Of a DNA stretch of 64,000 nucleotides, positions 17,517 through 29,768 are shown piece by piece. A program made the translations under genes and the position numbers. Position 1 is the stretch's first letter. Each line of letters starts with the position of its first letter. The DNA is from Marinomonas communis (lineage in GTDB: Bacteria; Pseudomonadota; Gammaproteobacteria; Pseudomonadales; Marinomonadaceae). The stretch lies in NCBI RefSeq assembly GCF_004363305.1, contig NZ_SNZA01000001.1, forward strand, positions 957,228-1,021,227. The letters run 5' to 3'. The notes under the pieces are model-generated. The model ran no database searches and was not told the DNA's origin. It saw only the letters and a list, made by a program, of their open reading frames with translations.

Positions 17517-18746
17517 TTACGCCACGTCTTGATGAATCATTCTAGGCGTTTTCTGTAAGTAAGCTTCCATTTCTGCCATGCCATTAGGCTGATCTACTTT
17601 TACACCAAGGTCACGCATGGTGCTGCCAAATGCATGAAGTGTTCTAAACAAGTTGTGTTCACGACACTGCTCGCCCATCTGTCCAATACGAACAATCGGC
17701 TGCCCAAATGAGCCGGCAATTTCAACACGATAAGTGGCCGAAATATGGTCGCAGATCTGTTTTGCTGACAATCCTTCGGGAATGCTGATGCCAACAACTG
17801 AGTTTAATCGAGCAGGAGGCTCTATAAACAATTCAAGTCCCATACCTTGAATGCCAGCCTGCAATGCCTGTGAACAGCGTAAGTGACGTGCAAAACGTTG
17901 CTCAAGAGTCTCTTCACAAACCAGCTTCAACGCTTCATGCAAAGCCATAATCCCAGACACTGGCGCTGTATAGTGATAGCCATCACGATGCCAGAAATTT
18001 TCTGCTAAACGAACATCAAAACACCAATGTGTCAGTGGTGTTGTGCGGTTTTCAATGGCACGCCAAGCATCATCAGAAAAAGCAACCAGCGACACCCCTG
18101 GAATAGACGAAAGACCTTTTTGACCACCTGTAATCACGCAGTCAACATTCCACTCATCCATTTTCAATGGCATGGTACTAAGAGTACATACGGCATCAAC
18201 CACCACTAAACAACCATACTCTTTAGCAATCTTCGCAATGTCTTTTAGTGTGTAGTTGCATACGGTATTGGATGTTTCACCCTGCACCATACTGATTACT
18301 TTTGGGCGCACTTGTTCGATTGCTTTACGAACACGGTCTGGATCCGCTGCTTCATGCACTGGAATATGTAACTCATGAACATCCGCACCAATACGAGTTG
18401 CCATTTCAGCCATTCGGTGACTAAAGAAGCCATTGTTCAAACACAAGATTTTTTCACCAGGTTGCAACAAGTTCACCGCAGACATTTCCATGGCGGCGGA
18501 GGCAGGTCCCGCGACACCAAGCACCCACTTGGATTCCGTTTGAAACACGTAACGAGCCATGCTTTTAACTTGGTTAATAACTTTGGCCATGGTCGGGCCT
18601 AGGTGATTAATCACAACTGAATTGGCTTTGGCAACGCGCTCAGGAATAGGCACTGGTCCGGCGCCCATCATTAATAGAGGTTCCTGTGGAAGAATATCGT
18701 CTAAGGATTGAAGTTGTGGACGGGGAATACCCGTTGAAGAGTCCAT
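17517..18746 (-). CDS. PLP-dependent aminotransferase, alanine/serine-glyoxylate (PucG-like) family
   Basis: This is a 409-residue class V, fold type I aminotransferase. The PLP lysine is Lys210 in ITGGQKGLSSIPG and the pyridine-binding aspartate is Asp184 in LVVVDAV. The start LLMMGAGPVPIPERV and GVAGPASAAMEMS match the alanine/serine-glyoxylate and ureidoglycine-glyoxylate (PucG) group. It would transfer an amino group to glyoxylate or pyruvate from a donor that is not clear here. No purine-breakdown gene is nearby, so the PucG role is not supported by context. It is a single-gene unit: a terminator follows, and the promoter lies in the 676-bp gap shared with the divergent glucosylglycerate cluster. 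Confidence 0.82.
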   Translation of the reverse strand: MDSSTGIPRPQLQSLDDILPQEPLLMMGAGPVPIPERVAKANSVVINHLGPTMAKVINQVKSMARYVFQTESKWVLGVAGPASAAMEMSAVNLLQPGEKILCLNNGFFSHRMAEMATRIGADVHELHIPVHEAADPDRVRKAIEQVRPKVISMVQGETSNTVCNYTLKDIAKIAKEYGCLVVVDAVCTLSTMPLKMDEWNVDCVITGGQKGLSSIPGVSLVAFSDDAWRAIENRTTPLTHWCFDVRLAENFWHRDGYHYTAPVSGIMALHEALKLVCEETLEQRFARHLRCSQALQAGIQGMGLELFIEPPARLNSVVGISIPEGLSAKQICDHISATYRVEIAGSFGQPIVRIGQMGEQCREHNLFRTLHAFGSTMRDLGVKVDQPNGMAEMEAYLQKTPRMIHQDVA

Positions 18747-19066: not shown

Positions 19067-19110
19067 TACACCATTGTGCAGACACGCCTTAAGCGAACCA
19101 AATTGGTGCA
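19067..19110 (+). promoter_or_regulatory. NtrC-like enhancer site upstream of the glucosylglycerate operon
   Basis: At 19094-19110 CGAACCA, three bases, TGGTGCA matches the E. coli NtrC dyad TGCACCA-N3-TGGTGCA at 12 of 14 positions, including the complete right arm. A further half-site TACACCA (19067-19073, six of seven) and TTGTGCA (19074-19080) lie just upstream. The distance to the predicted transcription start (about 240 bp) is acceptable for an enhancer. This is a motif match, not proof. Confidence 0.5.
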
Positions 19111-19314
19111 AACACACACGATTTCCTTTGTTATCTCTAAATAGTTTTCAGCACAAAAGCCTCACAACTCTGGCGGCAAAACATTCGTCTTTATGCCACT
19201 AAAGATTCATACCTTATTCTTTACTATACCCTTTGAACACTGGGCCTTTCACTGTCACAAATCTGTGTTGCTGAAGGGATAAACTGATCGTCAAATTGTT
19301 TTTAATTCATGCTC

Positions 19315-19330
19315 TGGCAAGCATATTGCT
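19315..19330 (+). promoter_or_regulatory. Sigma-54 (RpoN) promoter of the glucosylglycerate operon
   Basis: TGGCAAG, four bases, TTGCT has exactly ten bases between the GG and GC dinucleotides, the strict spacing of the -24/-12 consensus TGGCACG-N4-TTGCW. It matches at all but one of the conserved positions. The start of transcription would be near 19341, leaving an ~80-base leader before the GTG start with its AGGAGG site. Confidence 0.65.
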
Positions 19331-19422
19331 TTCACTGTTATGTCAGTCGGTTTCGCCATGACACGGTGAATGTCCCAAAACAGGTCAGAGGTACATTGAC
19401 TGGTATTTGCAAAGGAGGAAAG

Positions 19423-20283
19423 GTGACGCGCTTCATTGAAGTTAACGCCACCGAATGTATGACGACCACTTTATTAGTCTTTACAGATTTAGATGGCACG
19501 TTACTTGATCATTATAGCTATGACTTTTCTGCGGCCAGTGACGCTCTAAACAGTTTAAAAACGCTAGGTATTCCTTGCGTCTTAAACACCAGCAAGACTT
19601 ACGCAGAGCTTTTAGAACTTCGTGGTGCATTGCGCCATAAAGATCCGTTTATTGTAGAGAACGGAGCAGCTGTTTATCTGCCCGTAAACAGCCGCTTCGA
19701 CTCTACCCCTGAATGGACGCAACGTGGTGACTATTGGGTAAAGGCATTTGGTCCAGACCGCCAACAGCTGATCGCAACCGCAAAAACTATGAAGTCACGC
19801 TTTGATTTCGTTGGATACCATGAACTTACCGTTGAGCAGTTGATGGAACACACCGGTCTCGATGCGCACACCGCCACACTCTCCATGGAGCGAGAGTTCA
19901 CTGAACCCTTAATCTGGAACGACTCAAATAATGCTTTGGCTGAATTTCGAGGCCTGATGGCTGAGAAAGGCATCAAAGTTCAGAAAGGCGGACGCTTTGT
20001 CCATCTTATGGGACAAAACTGCGACAAAGCAGTTGCTATGAAATGGCTTACCGAACGTTATCAAAACAATACGTCTGATGTCGTCAAGAGCATTGCCTTA
20101 GGTGATGGAGAAAACGACGTTGAGATGATAAGCAAAGCCAACATTCCTGTGGTAGTACGCTCGCCAGTTCACGTACCGCCAGAAATACCCAACCGAAATG
20201 ACGTATGGATTACCGACTCATATGGCCCAAAAGGTTGGAGCGAAGCGATTAACCAAGCGCTGACAAACGAAGGATTTATTTAA
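19423..20283 (+). CDS. HAD phosphatase, glucosyl-/mannosyl-3-phosphoglycerate phosphatase
   Basis: This is a 286-residue HAD-IIB phosphatase of the mannosyl-3-phosphoglycerate phosphatase family. Motif I is FTDLDGTLL with nucleophile Asp22 and acid Asp24, and motif IV is GDGENDVEMI. With the GT81 synthase next to it, the likely step is removal of phosphate from glucosyl-3-phosphoglycerate to give the osmolyte glucosylglycerate. The GTG at 19423 was chosen because AGGAGG lies four bases before it; the ATG at 19459, just before motif I, has no ribosome binding site but remains possible. It is first in a three-gene operon driven by a sigma-54-type promoter. Confidence 0.82.
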   Translation: MTRFIEVNATECMTTTLLVFTDLDGTLLDHYSYDFSAASDALNSLKTLGIPCVLNTSKTYAELLELRGALRHKDPFIVENGAAVYLPVNSRFDSTPEWTQRGDYWVKAFGPDRQQLIATAKTMKSRFDFVGYHELTVEQLMEHTGLDAHTATLSMEREFTEPLIWNDSNNALAEFRGLMAEKGIKVQKGGRFVHLMGQNCDKAVAMKWLTERYQNNTSDVVKSIALGDGENDVEMISKANIPVVVRSPVHVPPEIPNRNDVWITDSYGPKGWSEAINQALTNEGFI

Positions 20284-20343: not shown

Positions 20344-21570
20344 ATGGGTGATTTTTACCAAAACGGCATACTAACAACACTGCATAATTTGTCACAGCGT
20401 CCTCTCGAAGAGATGGAGAATGAGCTGTGTGAATTCGCTAAAAAACGCCCAATGGCCTTGATCTTGCCTTGCTTGTATTCCGAGCTTGAAACAGAGGCGA
20501 TGCCTAATATCATTCGCCATCTTAAGCAAGTACCTTACCCGATTGAGATCATCATCGGTCTTGATCGTGCCACCGAAGAACAATACAAACACGCTTTAGA
20601 ATTCTTTTCCGAACTGCCACAGAAGCATAAAGTGCTGTGGAATGATGGCCCTCGCTTGCGTGCTATTGATGAGATTCTTAAAGGTGAAAAACTATCGCCG
20701 AATGATCCTGGCAAAGGACGTAATGTATGGTTCTGCATGGGCTATGCCCTCACATCGTCAAACGCTGATGCTGTGGCCATGCACGACTGTGACATCGTCA
20801 CTTATGACCGCAGTTTGCTCGCTCGCTTGATCTACCCTGTTGCAAACCCTAACTTCAACTACGAATTCTGTAAGGGCTTTTATGCCCGCACAGCAAACGG
20901 AAAAATGAACGGTCGTGTAAGCCGACTGCTGGTAACACCATTGCTCTACTCGCTCAAGAAGGTTTTAGGTCATTTAGACTACCTAGATTACTTAGACAGC
21001 TACCGCTACTCACTAGCAGGCGAGTTTTCGTTCCGCCGCGATGTGATGACAGATTTACGTATTCCGAGTGATTGGGGATTAGAGATTGGTGTGCTATCAG
21101 AAATGTATCGCAACTACTCTACCAACCGTTTATGTCAGGTAGACATTGCCGATGCGTACGATCACAAGCACCAAGATTTATCTGCGGATAACGACGATGG
21201 TGGCTTATCAAAAATGTCGATCGATATTACCAAAGCGATCTTCCGTAAGTTGGCGACCAACGGCATCGTGTTTAATCAAGAAACCTTCCGCACCATCAAA
21301 GCCACCTATTATCGAGTCGCATTAGATTTCATCGAAACTTACCGTAATGACGCGGAAATTAATGGTTTGAAACTGGATGTGCACTCCGAAGAACGAGCCG
21401 TAGAGCTGTTTGCTAGCAACATCATGAAAGCTGGCAACATGTATTTAGAAAACCCTATGGAAGCACCGTTTATTCCAAGCTGGAACCGTGTAGCCAGCGC
21501 TTTCCCAGGTGTAATGCAACAACTTGAAGAAGCGGTGGCACAAGACATGCAGGAATACGGGCCGAAATAG
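20344..21570 (+). CDS. gpgS: GT81-type glucosyl-3-phosphoglycerate synthase
   Basis: This is a 408-residue cytosolic glycosyltransferase with a GT-A fold. The metal-binding DxD-type motif is Asp148/Asp150 in AMHDCDIVTY, and DGPRLRAIDEIL plus GKGRNVWFCMGYAL are the nucleotide-sugar and acceptor segments seen in GpgS proteins. It would join glucose from an NDP-glucose to 3-phosphoglycerate. Length fits the family. It is flanked by the phosphatase (60 bp before) and a GH13_18 phosphorylase (64 bp after), so the operon covers synthesis and breakdown of glucosylglycerate. The symbol rests on family and context. Confidence 0.82.
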   Translation: MGDFYQNGILTTLHNLSQRPLEEMENELCEFAKKRPMALILPCLYSELETEAMPNIIRHLKQVPYPIEIIIGLDRATEEQYKHALEFFSELPQKHKVLWNDGPRLRAIDEILKGEKLSPNDPGKGRNVWFCMGYALTSSNADAVAMHDCDIVTYDRSLLARLIYPVANPNFNYEFCKGFYARTANGKMNGRVSRLLVTPLLYSLKKVLGHLDYLDYLDSYRYSLAGEFSFRRDVMTDLRIPSDWGLEIGVLSEMYRNYSTNRLCQVDIADAYDHKHQDLSADNDDGGLSKMSIDITKAIFRKLATNGIVFNQETFRTIKATYYRVALDFIETYRNDAEINGLKLDVHSEERAVELFASNIMKAGNMYLENPMEAPFIPSWNRVASAFPGVMQQLEEAVAQDMQEYGPK

Positions 21571-21634: not shown

Positions 21635-23389
21635 ATGGATGCAGCGCCCCTTTCACATTTAGAGCAGCGATTAATTGGCCATTTACAAGTTCTGTATCCA
21701 CATTTAGATGCAGGGGAAATGGCGAGAAACTGCTTAGCCACTTTTGGCTTAGATCCCAAAACAGAATCCCCACAGCCTCACAGAAACATCTGGGATCAGT
21801 CGGATATCATGCTGATCACCTATGCCGACACCCTTCGCCGTGAGAATGAACCACCCATCAATACGCTGCATCATTTCGTCAAAACAGAGCTAGCCCAATG
21901 CATCTCGACTGTTCACCTGTTGCCATTTTTTCCATACAGCTCGGATGATGGATTTAGTGTGATGGATTACACCTCCGTTAATCCATCCGCTGGTAAGTGG
22001 CGTGATATCTCGGCTTTAGCGCAAGATTTCAAAGTGATGGGGGATCTGGTGATCAACCACTGTTCCAGCCGAAGTATGTGGTTTGAAAATTTCAAAGCTG
22101 GCGTTGAACCAGGAGCCAGTTATTTTTATGAGGCCGATCCTAACGCTGACTTGAGCAATGTGGTACGGCCTAGAACCTCTCCGCTTCTGCGCGAGGTTCA
22201 AACCAAGAACGGCACCAAATACGTGTGGTGTACCTTTAGTCATGACCAAGTTGATCTGAATTTCGAAAATCCTAAGGTGTTGATGGAGTTCTTGCGCATT
22301 ATCCGTCTCTACTTAGAAAAAGGCATTCGCTGGTTTAGATTGGATGCAGTCGCTTTCCTTTGGAAGAGCCCTGGTACACCCAGTATCAACCTACCCAATA
22401 CCCATGAAATGATTCGCTTACTGCGTTTGATGATCGAGCATTATGCTCCAGACGCGGTCATTATTACCGAAACCAATATCCCTAACCGAGAAAACTTAAC
22501 CTACTTTGGTAACGCCAACGAAGCACACTTAATTTATAACTTCTCATTGCCACCACTGTTGATTAACACCTTGGTATCTGGAAACTGCGAGCATTTAAAG
22601 AACTGGCTAATGCGTATGCCGCCAGCTCAGCAAGGTACGACTTACTTAAACTTTGTCGCATCCCATGATGGCGTTGGCTTGCGCCCTACTGAAGGTCTAC
22701 TAAGCGAATGGGAGCTGGACAATCTCATCAGTACCATGAAGCGCTTTGGCGGAAAGATTAGCTCAAGAACAACACTGACGGGGGAAGCGAAGCCGTACGA
22801 AATCAATATCAGTTTATGGGATGCCTTAAGTGGTTCCGTAAGCAAAGGACCTGACCAATGGCAGTTTGCTCGTTTTATGTGTGCAGCGGCCATACAGTTG
22901 GCGCTTGAAGGGTTACCCGCGTTTTATATTCATTCATTGTTCGGTACTGAAAACGACTATGCGCGAGTCGACAATACTGGCCAATTCCGTTCTATCAACC
23001 GACACATATGGGATATGGACGATTTAGAACACAAACTTAATACGCCATCACACCATCAAAAAGTGTTTCAGGCATTACGCAACCTGATCCAAATAAGACG
23101 TGCTCAACCAGCTTTTCATCCTAATGCGACGCAGTATGTCCTACACACGGGTAACAAGCTGTTCGCATTTTGGCGCCAAAGCTTGGATCGTCGCCAAAGC
23201 CTGTTTGCGATCTATAACATTACCGATGAGCCACAAAGCTTTAATCTAGCTGAGCTAAACTTAATCGCGACTGACGATTGGACAGACTTAGTCACTGATC
23301 AGAAATACGAGGACAGGCTTGCTCAAGTTACCTTGATGCCTTACCAGTTCTTATGGCTAGCCAATAAGAAAAGTAAGGCTAAACAATAA
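21635..23389 (+). CDS. GH13_18 phosphorylase, probably glucosylglycerate phosphorylase
   Basis: This is a 584-residue GH13 subfamily 18 (sucrose phosphorylase-like) enzyme. The catalytic set is visible: nucleophile Asp237 in RWFRLDAVAF, acid/base Glu279 in IITETN, and Asp345 in VASHDG. Relatives cleave sucrose, sucrose 6F-phosphate, glucosylglycerol or glucosylglycerate with phosphate, giving glucose 1-phosphate. Sitting after a glucosylglycerate synthase and phosphatase, glucosylglycerate is the likeliest substrate (E. coli YcjM is an example of that activity). It would reclaim the osmolyte as glucose 1-phosphate and glycerate. The alternative is sucrose phosphorylase. Confidence 0.8.
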   Translation: MDAAPLSHLEQRLIGHLQVLYPHLDAGEMARNCLATFGLDPKTESPQPHRNIWDQSDIMLITYADTLRRENEPPINTLHHFVKTELAQCISTVHLLPFFPYSSDDGFSVMDYTSVNPSAGKWRDISALAQDFKVMGDLVINHCSSRSMWFENFKAGVEPGASYFYEADPNADLSNVVRPRTSPLLREVQTKNGTKYVWCTFSHDQVDLNFENPKVLMEFLRIIRLYLEKGIRWFRLDAVAFLWKSPGTPSINLPNTHEMIRLLRLMIEHYAPDAVIITETNIPNRENLTYFGNANEAHLIYNFSLPPLLINTLVSGNCEHLKNWLMRMPPAQQGTTYLNFVASHDGVGLRPTEGLLSEWELDNLISTMKRFGGKISSRTTLTGEAKPYEINISLWDALSGSVSKGPDQWQFARFMCAAAIQLALEGLPAFYIHSLFGTENDYARVDNTGQFRSINRHIWDMDDLEHKLNTPSHHQKVFQALRNLIQIRRAQPAFHPNATQYVLHTGNKLFAFWRQSLDRRQSLFAIYNITDEPQSFNLAELNLIATDDWTDLVTDQKYEDRLAQVTLMPYQFLWLANKKSKAKQ

Positions 23390-25474: not shown

Positions 25475-26677
25475 ATGCAACTCACGCTTCCTATCATTCT
25501 CGTCCTAGGGCTGCTATCAGGCATTACCCCTCTGGCCATTGATGCTTATTTACCAAGCTTCCCTAGTGTGGCCCACGACTTAAACCAAGACATTAGCCAC
25601 ATTCAACTGACTCTCAGCGTGTACTTGCTGGTATTTGCTATTTTTCAAATGGTTTATGGCCCAATATCGGACGCGATTGGACGTCGAAAAGTAGTGGTTA
25701 CCGGCCTGATCATTTTTAGCCTCGGCAGCCTTGCCTGTGCAATAGCAGGCACTTATGAATGGCTTTTGAGTGGGCGCGTCATTCAAGCCATCGGCGGTGC
25801 CGCCGTTGCGGTAACGATCCCTGCTCTAGTAAAAGATAACCTAAGTACCAACCAGTTTGCCAAAGCGATGTCGATGGTCATGCTGGTTATGGCGCTGGCG
25901 CCATTGGTTGCACCGATTCTTGGGGGAGCCATTTTGGTTGTATTCAATTGGCATGCGATCTTTATTTTCTTAATGCTGCTTGCCATTTTAGCCATTGTGC
26001 TTTTCTTAAAAACCATCCCTGAAACACTGCCATCAGAACAGCGTACACCACTGTCGTTTAAAACAGCCATGAGCAACTATTACAAACTGACTCGTCAACC
26101 CATCATCATGGGCTACATCATGGCAGGCTCATTGCACTTTGCAGGTTTGATGTGTTTTGTGACTGGTGCATCCTTCGTATACATCAAAGTCTATGGCGTT
26201 GACGAAGGACTCTTTGGCTTCTTATTTGGTCTTAACGTCATCACGATGATGTTAGCAACCACCATAAATGGTCGTTTTGTTGAGCGTTTAGGGATCGACA
26301 CATTGATACGATACGCTATGACTGTGCTAATGCTAGATGTCATTGCATTGATTTCAATGAGCTTCATGGAGCAACCACCGTTGCCTGCATTAATCCTCGG
26401 GATGATGTTCTTCACTGGCCCAATTGGTATTTTGGGAAGTGGTTTCATGGGTGGTGCTATGCGACGTGCGGGATCGTTAAACGGTAGTGTTGCAGCCCTT
26501 GCTGGTACGATTCGTTTTTCATTAGGGGCATTAAGTGGTGTCGTTTTAAGTGTGCTTCACAATGGTACTTTTGTGCCAATGTTAGGTATTATGGCTTTTT
26601 GTGGACTGACGACATACATTATTTATCGCATCGTTCGTCATTTTGAACAGCTGTCCCCTATTAGCGAAAAACACTAA
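25475..26677 (+). CDS. Bcr/CflA family MFS efflux transporter
   Basis: This is a 400-residue inner-membrane protein with twelve hydrophobic segments. The loop between segments 2 and 3, VYGPISDAIGRRKVVVTGL, is the MFS signature, and the first segment (LSGITPLAIDAYLPSFP) is typical of Bcr/CflA drug-proton antiporters. Its likely role is export of a toxic compound such as bicyclomycin or chloramphenicol. A TTGACA at 25428-25433 with 17-bp spacing to TTTACA gives a weak candidate promoter. It is followed after 14 bp by the HopJ-family gene, so the two are probably co-transcribed. Confidence 0.9.
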   Translation: MQLTLPIILVLGLLSGITPLAIDAYLPSFPSVAHDLNQDISHIQLTLSVYLLVFAIFQMVYGPISDAIGRRKVVVTGLIIFSLGSLACAIAGTYEWLLSGRVIQAIGGAAVAVTIPALVKDNLSTNQFAKAMSMVMLVMALAPLVAPILGGAILVVFNWHAIFIFLMLLAILAIVLFLKTIPETLPSEQRTPLSFKTAMSNYYKLTRQPIIMGYIMAGSLHFAGLMCFVTGASFVYIKVYGVDEGLFGFLFGLNVITMMLATTINGRFVERLGIDTLIRYAMTVLMLDVIALISMSFMEQPPLPALILGMMFFTGPIGILGSGFMGGAMRRAGSLNGSVAALAGTIRFSLGALSGVVLSVLHNGTFVPMLGIMAFCGLTTYIIYRIVRHFEQLSPISEKH

Positions 26678-28277: not shown

Positions 28278-29768
28278 CTAAACGATGCCATACTCTTTCA
28301 GTTTATTTGCAATGGAGCTGTGGCTTACATTTAAAAACTTAGCCAATTTCCGTGTACTTGGGTATTGTGGATAGAGCTTCCTCAATACCTGAGCCTCATA
28401 GGCTTTGACTGTTTTATCAAGCGAACCGTCAATCAAAGCAATTGGCATGGTTTCCCCTACCTCTAATGGCAGATCACTGGTTTCGATTTGCATACCGCTC
28501 GCGATATGTCTTGCTTGGTAAAGACAAGATTCAAGCTCTTTTAAGTTACCTGGCCAGTGATGCATTTTCAGCAATGCCATGGCGTCTTCAGATAACGAAA
28601 TTGGGGACTCACCCGAACGTTCACCAGCATCCGCTAAGATTTCGCGCGACAAACCAACCAAATCATCCTTGCGCTCACGCAAAGGCGGCACATGCAGCTG
28701 GTAGCTACTTAGCATGAAATAAAGCTCATCCCGAAGATGATCCTGCTCTCTTAAACTCTCATCACTTAGTCTCGATAATCCAATCACTCGACAAGGCGCT
28801 TGTGTTTGATACAAACGACTTGGCTGCTCTTTTAACCAATCAATTAACAAGCCTTGGCAGGAGTCAGACATACGCTCAACATCGTCAATGGCTAACCAAC
28901 CGCCTTGTTCCAGATACTCTGTCAGCGTTTCAGAAGTTAATGCAGCGCCACCTACGTAGCGTATAGCAGATTCGAACTCCAAGTTTTGCTGCTGCCAAGC
29001 GTGAAAGATAGCGTCCAGCAACCGCTTCTTGCCCACCGCAAACTCCCCTGTCATCAACATGGGGCTGTCTATCGAAACATAAGCATGAGCAAACGTTAAG
29101 CATCGTTTCATGGCCACACTTCGACATACGCTTGGCTCCATAAACCCTTGCAAGGCATGCTCTGCATCTGGGGCTTTGCGCAAACTGGAAGCCTGCCTTC
29201 CTAACCTTTGTGCAGAACGAATATAAATCACACCACCGGCACAAACATTTATAGCGTTTTCATTTGTCACGAAGTAAGGCTGCATTTCCAGCAGCATAAG
29301 CTGGCCATTCAGACGAACCCGCTTCGTCACACCATGCTGAAAAGTTTGCCAATCCAGTCGTTCAAAATTAATACTAGGGATAAACTGACTCAGTGGCTGC
29401 CCAAACATCTGAGCCAAAGAGCTCGACACATCTTCCGCGGCCTGTTGCGTTGCCATGGTGATAATGCCTTTTAAATCTACTGCAACGACACCATCTGGCA
29501 GTGCTTCAAGCAGAGTATGTAACACGTGCTGTTCGCGCTCTGAGGGTGTGTATTGCACAGTTTTCACATCTGCCACACCGCGCAAACGACGGATATCCGC
29601 TAACAGTTGAGTCAATTGCTTAAATTCAATGTCATCAAACCCTACATACAAGCAGCCAACTCGACTGTTGACCTCTACTCGACGCATATCGATATGATAA
29701 GGCACCAACAGATCGAGTATTTCCATCGCCATCCCGACTCGATCTTCACACCTAACTTCTAAACGCAT
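28278..29768 (-). CDS. TyrR-like transcriptional regulator with degenerate AAA+ domain
   Basis: This is a 496-residue protein that aligns end to end with TyrR: an ACT domain (MRLEVRCEDRVGMAMEILDLLV start), a PAS domain (ALPDGVVAVDLKGIITMA), a central AAA+ domain and a C-terminal helix-turn-helix (PSTRKLAKFLNVSHSSIANKLKEYGIV). TyrR regulates aromatic amino acid genes. The AAA+ part is worn: Walker A reads GEFAVGKKR instead of the GxTGTGK consensus, Walker B reads LAIDDVE instead of LLDEI, and about twenty residues of the loop region are shortened. ATP-driven remodelling is therefore doubtful. It is divergent from a LysR-type gene and shares a dyad-containing promoter region with it. Confidence 0.85.
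   Translation of the reverse strand: MRLEVRCEDRVGMAMEILDLLVPYHIDMRRVEVNSRVGCLYVGFDDIEFKQLTQLLADIRRLRGVADVKTVQYTPSEREQHVLHTLLEALPDGVVAVDLKGIITMATQQAAEDVSSSLAQMFGQPLSQFIPSINFERLDWQTFQHGVTKRVRLNGQLMLLEMQPYFVTNENAINVCAGGVIYIRSAQRLGRQASSLRKAPDAEHALQGFMEPSVCRSVAMKRCLTFAHAYVSIDSPMLMTGEFAVGKKRLLDAIFHAWQQQNLEFESAIRYVGGAALTSETLTEYLEQGGWLAIDDVERMSDSCQGLLIDWLKEQPSRLYQTQAPCRVIGLSRLSDESLREQDHLRDELYFMLSSYQLHVPPLRERKDDLVGLSREILADAGERSGESPISLSEDAMALLKMHHWPGNLKELESCLYQARHIASGMQIETSDLPLEVGETMPIALIDGSLDKTVKAYEAQVLRKLYPQYPSTRKLAKFLNVSHSSIANKLKEYGIV

Follow-up and report, generated by a model that had tools for sequence, protein, structure and literature searches.

A putative sigma-54 promoter and NtrC-type enhancer upstream of the glucosylglycerate operon in Marinomonas communis

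What signal switches on the glucosylglycerate genes of Marinomonas communis? Glucosylglycerate accumulates under nitrogen shortage in other bacteria, according to the accessible text of PMC11009771, PMC6608630 and PMC5924519, and the tie between this solute and nitrogen shortage in several bacteria, from which the original prediction for this locus started, is thus published. No description of a gammaproteobacterial glucosylglycerate switch was found in the searchable papers. Such a switch could explain how nitrogen-rich protectants are swapped for nitrogen-free glucosylglycerate. The stretch of DNA analysed here (64,000 nucleotides, hereafter the window) carries the following genes and start signal.

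19423..20283, + strand: gpgP, a HAD phosphatase gene with candidate starts at GTG 19423 and ATG 19462
20344..21570, + strand: gpgS, glucosyl-3-phosphoglycerate synthase gene
21635..23389, + strand: gene for a sucrose-phosphorylase-family enzyme
19412..19418, + strand: Shine-Dalgarno-like AAGGAGG, which fits GTG 19423 better than ATG 19462

The gpgP product falls into the TIGR01486-type family, i.e., the mannosyl-3-phosphoglycerate phosphatase family of HAD proteins, with 217.3 bits in the profile search (cut-off 164.75), and it scored 349.3 bits against the closest equivalog NF001218, below the cut-off of 362. GpgS matched NF040724 over residues 3-405 with 366.9 bits (below the cut-off of 700) and matched solved GpgS structures at the 1e-6 level, and the gpgS gene shares 99% identity with its counterpart in M. 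ostreistagni USM7. The third product scored 195.6 bits against TIGR03852, below the cut-off of 334.4, and also matches solved sucrose phosphorylases and glucosylglycerol phosphorylases; judged from its gene context, it is probably a glucosylglycerate phosphorylase. As described in the accessible text of PMC7178133, the true specificity of such phosphorylases was deduced from the genes next to them, which encode glycerate kinase, GpgS or GpgP. The operons of that study combine GpgS, GpgP and glucosylglycerate phosphorylase, which is the enzyme set of the window operon, and the glycerate kinase gene is a frequent neighbour there, as in the kinase-first operons of relatives described below; transcription control is not treated in the accessible text.

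The family searches agree with the phosphatase-synthase-phosphorylase order that had been read from the open reading frames, and the same order was found in all 80 named loci (one of which ends at a contig edge). Many gpg operons (L099-L107, L114-L116 and others) begin with a P-loop kinase gene placed before gpgP. Its product matches P-loop kinase families, always below cut-off, and no NCBIfam model names it above cut-off; perhaps it is a glycerate kinase. The GTG at 19423 may be the true start of gpgP or may open a short leader peptide. A side observation concerns L050, where the frame of GTG 19423 terminates at a TGA that overlaps the gpgP ATG (ATGA).

The first control signal upstream of this operon is a promoter element.

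19315..19330, + strand: sigma-54 -24/-12 element TGGCAAGCATATTGCT (TGGCAAG-N4-TTGCT), with a predicted transcription start at 19341

The GG (19316-19317) and GC (19328-19329) of TGGCAAGCATATTGCT are exactly ten bases apart, so the GG-N10-GC spacing claimed originally is read directly from the sequence, and counting from the C of the -12 GC predicts the very base, 19341, near which the start had been placed. Among the 12 specified bases of TGGCACG-N4-TTGCW the element has one mismatch. The window holds four matches to this pattern with at most one mismatch against 0.64 expected, a number that 0 of 100 shuffles reached; the other three lie at 19494 (inside gpgP), 26121 (inside a transporter ORF) and 41823, and the two within coding sequence (19494-19509 and 26121-26136) are probably chance matches. 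With a weight matrix entered by hand from general base preferences, TGGCAAGCATATTGCT scored 16.5 bits, and the site at 26121 (17.1 bits) was the sole one in the window above it. The match is not near chance, because 20 Markov sequences gave such scores just 0.05 times per strand per 64 kb. TGGCANG-N4-TTGCW occurs five times in the 3.85-Mb genome and its reversed pattern once, and the genome encodes RpoN (PF04552, 239.5 bits).

The element was then compared across gpg operons. From 258 candidate loci, a set that includes 100 and forty further loci taken from longer match listings, we removed 28 with short upstream sequence, 2 without an anchor and 16 with identical last 130 nt, which left 212 unique operon starts; 209 of these differ within the 60 nt before the start, and the sequences are related, so that the counts given here are not independent events. 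The best sigma-54 score was sought in about 300 nt before each operon start, with a threshold of 11 bits. With the proper spacer of 4, the threshold was reached at 117 of the 212 starts, as compared to 5, 6, 1, 10, 2 and 11 with the wrong spacers 1, 2, 3, 5, 6 and 7, to 4 on the reverse strand, and to 8 of 371 control ORFs from the named contigs, many of which may be operon-internal. All 31 Marinomonas promoters have a site of at least 13 bits when three divergent operons of the same genus are set apart, and sites of at least 11 bits precede 29/48 other named starts (including Maribrevibacterium L067 and other orders, e.g., Alteromonas and Vibrio) and 53/96 further starts of the same order, where the three divergent operons are counted. 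The original prediction had been staked on such conservation in relatives, which is what these counts show. For the remaining starts from other orders of the class (4/37 of at least 11 bits) there is no sigma-54 signal, because wrong spacers score alike (0-3).

All 12 specified bases of the element are invariant in the clade of the window, as seen in an alignment of seven sequences from the M. ostreistagni clade (the window, L050-L053, L080 and L081). In L052, L080 and L081 the spacing between the element and the projected start of gpgP changes by non-multiples of three, which indicates that this stretch is non-coding. The sigma-54 site also tracks the operon start, since it precedes the kinase gene where the kinase comes before gpgP. 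The site takes the form TGGCAAGAAAYCTGCW in Zhongshania, Spongiibacter and Neomelitea, where 49-89 nt separate it from the projected start of the kinase gene downstream, and five Alteromonas promoters carry a weaker type, TGGCAYARATGTTGTA, which scores 9.5-11.2 bits, lacks the C in the -12 GC and keeps a fixed position. An apparent lack of the site in Alteromonas, Zhongshania and Spongiibacter was rejected as an artefact of anchoring on gpgP, the site being located before the upstream kinase gene. Likewise, the sigma-54-like matches before gpgP in Hahella were set aside because by position they apparently lie within the kinase gene; the sites at the Hahella operon starts score 9.8-10.4 bits. 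Taken as sequence evidence, these comparisons make the predicted sigma-54 control of the gpg operon well supported. The three divergent same-genus operons (L036, L039 and L040) have a different site, TGGCACAGTAATTGTT, of 10.0 bits. It was also observed in these loci that gpgS is 68-70% identical and that TGGCACAGTAATTGTT precedes a possible small membrane-protein ORF.

A sigma-54 promoter raises the question of its activator, for which the window offers two further signals.

19094..19110, + strand: NtrC-type dyad CGAACCAAATTGGTGCA, a predicted enhancer matching 12 of 14 consensus positions
19076..19080, + strand: NtrC half-site GTGCA, some 30 nt ahead of the dyad

The match of 12/14 positions had been reported at the outset and the recount gave the same number, which by itself is near chance. 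CGAACCAAATTGGTGCA is the only 12/14 dyad in the window, against an expectation of 0.33, and at least one such dyad turns up in 30 of 100 shuffles; TGCACC-N5-GGTGCA with at most two mismatches occurs 99 times in the whole genome against 87 times for the reversed control. Because both counts sit near chance, the dyad alone is weak evidence, and its evidential weight is its position and its recurrence in relatives. At the aligned position, all seven clade sequences match at least 10/14 and 6 of 17 columns are invariant; five of the seven reach at least 12/14, that of L053 at a neighbouring position, and L052 and L080 have just 10/14. Columns 19076-19082, around the half-site, agree in 5 or 6 of the seven sequences. 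In the window, 204 nt lie between the end of the dyad and the -24 element, within the range of 202-241 nt found in Marinomonas; the gap is 64-153 nt in other genera. One could argue from the near-chance frequency of the dyad that both motifs are accidental and that the operon is read from an ordinary sigma-70 promoter. This is extremely improbable, given that the conservation beats the spacer, strand and gene controls and that no consensus sigma-70 promoter was found on the + strand between 18700 and 20000.

For the recurrence of the dyad, 147 promoters whose sigma-54 site scored 9.4 bits or more were taken, a threshold chosen after Alteromonas sites at 9.5 were known; 8 with less than 60 nt upstream were dropped, and the remaining 139 were searched up to 320 nt upstream of the sigma-54 site. 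Of these, 20 contain a dyad that matches 12/14 or more, whereas seven other spacers gave 0 or 1 and 400 permuted half-sites gave a mean of 0.08 and a maximum of 2. At 11/14 the number was 35, against a permutation mean of 1.3 and a maximum of 18 that came from a permutation resembling the consensus. The 104 promoters with at most 10/14 contain 46 exact GCACCA half-sites, against 16.2 (sd 8.3) for 59 permutations, none of which reached 46. In the 26 Marinomonas promoters of this group, 12 half-sites stand against 4.3, a number that 6 of the 59 permutations reached, and the excess is not significant. Starts without a detected sigma-54 site have dyads in 7/65 cases, so the sigma-54 and NtrC signals are not strictly coupled. 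As far as sequence comparison goes, a putative NtrC link is well supported as a property of the wider family of this operon.

Within the genus, dyads of at least 12/14 precede 5 of the 31 Marinomonas promoters, all from the M. ostreistagni clade, and neither the 25 Marinomonas promoters outside this clade nor L052 have a dyad above 10/14 within 320 nt, while their sigma-54 site is kept. The expected conservation of the dyad is thus seen at the level of the family and, within Marinomonas, in a minority of the promoters; nitrogen control is probable for the window and no more than a candidate for the genus. In the main Marinomonas group, further NtrC-like matches some 390 nt upstream of the element were not counted; they lie beyond 320 nt and, by eye, in an apparent coding part of a divergent gene. 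In the Marinomonas promoters without the dyad, weaker sites may be enough, more distant dyads may act, or a different activator may be used.

A different activator might also apply to the window itself: the sigma-54 promoter would be real and would respond to another enhancer-binding protein, e.g., one with an osmotic or carbon signal, and the window dyad would be a chance match or a relic. The sigma-54 site is indeed kept far more widely in Marinomonas than the dyad, and the genome encodes several more NtrC-family regulators that score below the NtrC cut-off. On the other hand, the dyad and the half-site are enriched family-wide at the correct place and spacer, and a tblastn search of the 80 named loci with the NtrC AAA domain detected no gene for an enhancer-binding protein next to the operon, the sole match being a weak partial one at 28524-28907 of the window (26.5% over 132 residues). 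The absence of an adjacent regulator gene points to a global activator, and we regard a non-NtrC activator as unlikely. It was further considered that the NtrC dyad might belong to the aminotransferase gene that diverges from the operon (17517-18746, - strand) instead of to gpgP, as this gene neighbours the gpg operon throughout the clade and starts about 350 nt from the dyad. No sigma-54-like site on the - strand between the two genes was among the top 25 matches listed, and gpg operons with an upstream dyad also occur in genera that lack the aminotransferase neighbour (e.g., L091, L095 and L098), which makes this assignment very unlikely.

NtrC itself is encoded in the genome, with one match above the cut-off of TIGR01818 (760.1 bits, cut-off 558.6). 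A sigma-54/NtrC switch that answers nitrogen shortage is in our judgement the best explanation for the gpg operon and a rather probable one. It builds on the two sequence signals in their order and distance, the conservation of the sigma-54 site, the enrichment of dyads in relatives and the presence of both the RpoN and NtrC genes. The gpgP-gpgS-phosphorylase operon would be transcribed from the promoter at 19315-19330, starting at 19341. Under nitrogen shortage, phosphorylated NtrC would bind the dyad at 19094-19110, aided by the weak half-site about 30 nt upstream, and would loop to the sigma-54 polymerase so that the promoter is opened; the cell would then make glucosylglycerate, a solute without nitrogen. 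A similar arrangement is found at glnA of the same genome, whose promoter, like the gpg promoter, combines a sigma-54 site (TGGCACAACTTGTGCT) with a dyad of 12/14 and, some 30 nt upstream of that dyad, a half-site. The two differ in the gap between dyad and -24 element (about 105 nt at glnA, 204 nt at the gpg promoter) and in their target, which is a nitrogen-assimilation enzyme at glnA and osmolyte synthesis at gpg. The nitrogen control first suggested for this operon is therefore probable for the window, being favoured by the kept sigma-54 site, the enriched dyads and the likeness to glnA, and weakened by the small number of dyads in Marinomonas.

Nitrogen may not be the only input, because a second promoter-like signal is located between the dyad and the sigma-54 element.

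19253..19270, + strand: Pho-box-like element CTGTCACAAATCTGTGTT
19281..19286, + strand: -10-like hexamer TAAACT, separated from the Pho-box-like element by exactly 10 nt

Promoters of the PhoB type consist of a Pho box, ten bases and a -10 hexamer. CTGTCACAAATCTGTGTT matches 15/18 positions of a Pho-box consensus, and the seven clade sequences agree fully in 13 of these 18 columns, as compared to 5 of 140 columns in 19111-19250; TAAACT matches TATAAT in 4/6 positions, with 3/6 columns invariant in the clade. The genome contains a PhoB gene, and a TGTCAT-N4-type block, equally spaced from a -10-like hexamer, scores best in 19 of the 25 other Marinomonas promoters, with a variant in Maribrevibacterium (table count). 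The stretch 19253-19286 is thus a possible second, phosphate-responsive promoter. Whether as the main or as the second promoter, a PhoB-type sigma-70 promoter would let phosphate control the operon, alone or together with nitrogen, and we consider this conceivable and rather doubtful. The pattern with at most three mismatches is common in the genome (103 against 61 for the control), its permutation test gave 7/32 promoters at 11/14 against a mean of 0.75 but a maximum of 19, and in other Marinomonas the block overlaps, by eye, the apparent start of the divergent gene.

The sigma-54/NtrC regulon is known mainly for nitrogen scavenging, and the sigma-54/NtrC mechanism favoured here would place an osmolyte operon in it. 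The conserved sigma-54 promoter and the NtrC dyads in many relatives offer a direct, testable mechanism for the switch, which predicts which marine genera should make the nitrogen switch and which should not. Tentatively, and with considerable doubt, the sigma-54/NtrC regulon might long have included glucosylglycerate synthesis throughout the order of Marinomonas and its close relatives, in kinase-first and phosphatase-first layouts alike; Marinomonas would then have added a PhoB-type promoter, so that the operon reads both nitrogen and phosphorus.

In the open-access literature, no paper tying gpg genes to sigma-54 or NtrC was found among the matches listed. The accessible text of open-access papers that contain both glucosylglycerate and NtrC draws no link between the two; in PMC3870243 and in three mycobacterial papers mentioning NtrC, glucosylglycerate appears solely in the reference lists, and the string 'regulat' is absent from a 2024 review. 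The gpg genes have been surveyed in 250 Marinobacter genomes (PMC10873239), and their control is not treated in the accessible text. According to the accessible text of PMC6608630, nitrogen-starved mycobacteria share the solute and the physiological trigger proposed here. Unlike the Marinomonas proposal, their nitrogen regulator is GlnR (PMC3612183, accessible text), with no NtrC/sigma-54, and their recovery uses a hydrolase (PMC6608630), whereas the window operon has a phosphorylase.

Other promoters of the M. communis genome give a mixed picture. At glnK there is a sigma-54 site of 10.9 bits and no dyad was found. At one ammonium-transporter gene, a site of 11.2 bits is immediately preceded by a half-site, but the 11/14 dyad of this gene lies downstream; no pair of sigma-54 site and dyad was found at the remaining ammonium-transporter and glutamine-synthetase-like genes. 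One of the five genomic TGGCANG-N4-TTGCW sites, TGGCAAGCTAATTGCT (L178), is near-identical to the gpg sigma-54 site and has GCACCAAA half-sites upstream. By eye, it precedes a gene for an amino-acid transporter binding protein-like product, which is a candidate second NtrC target.
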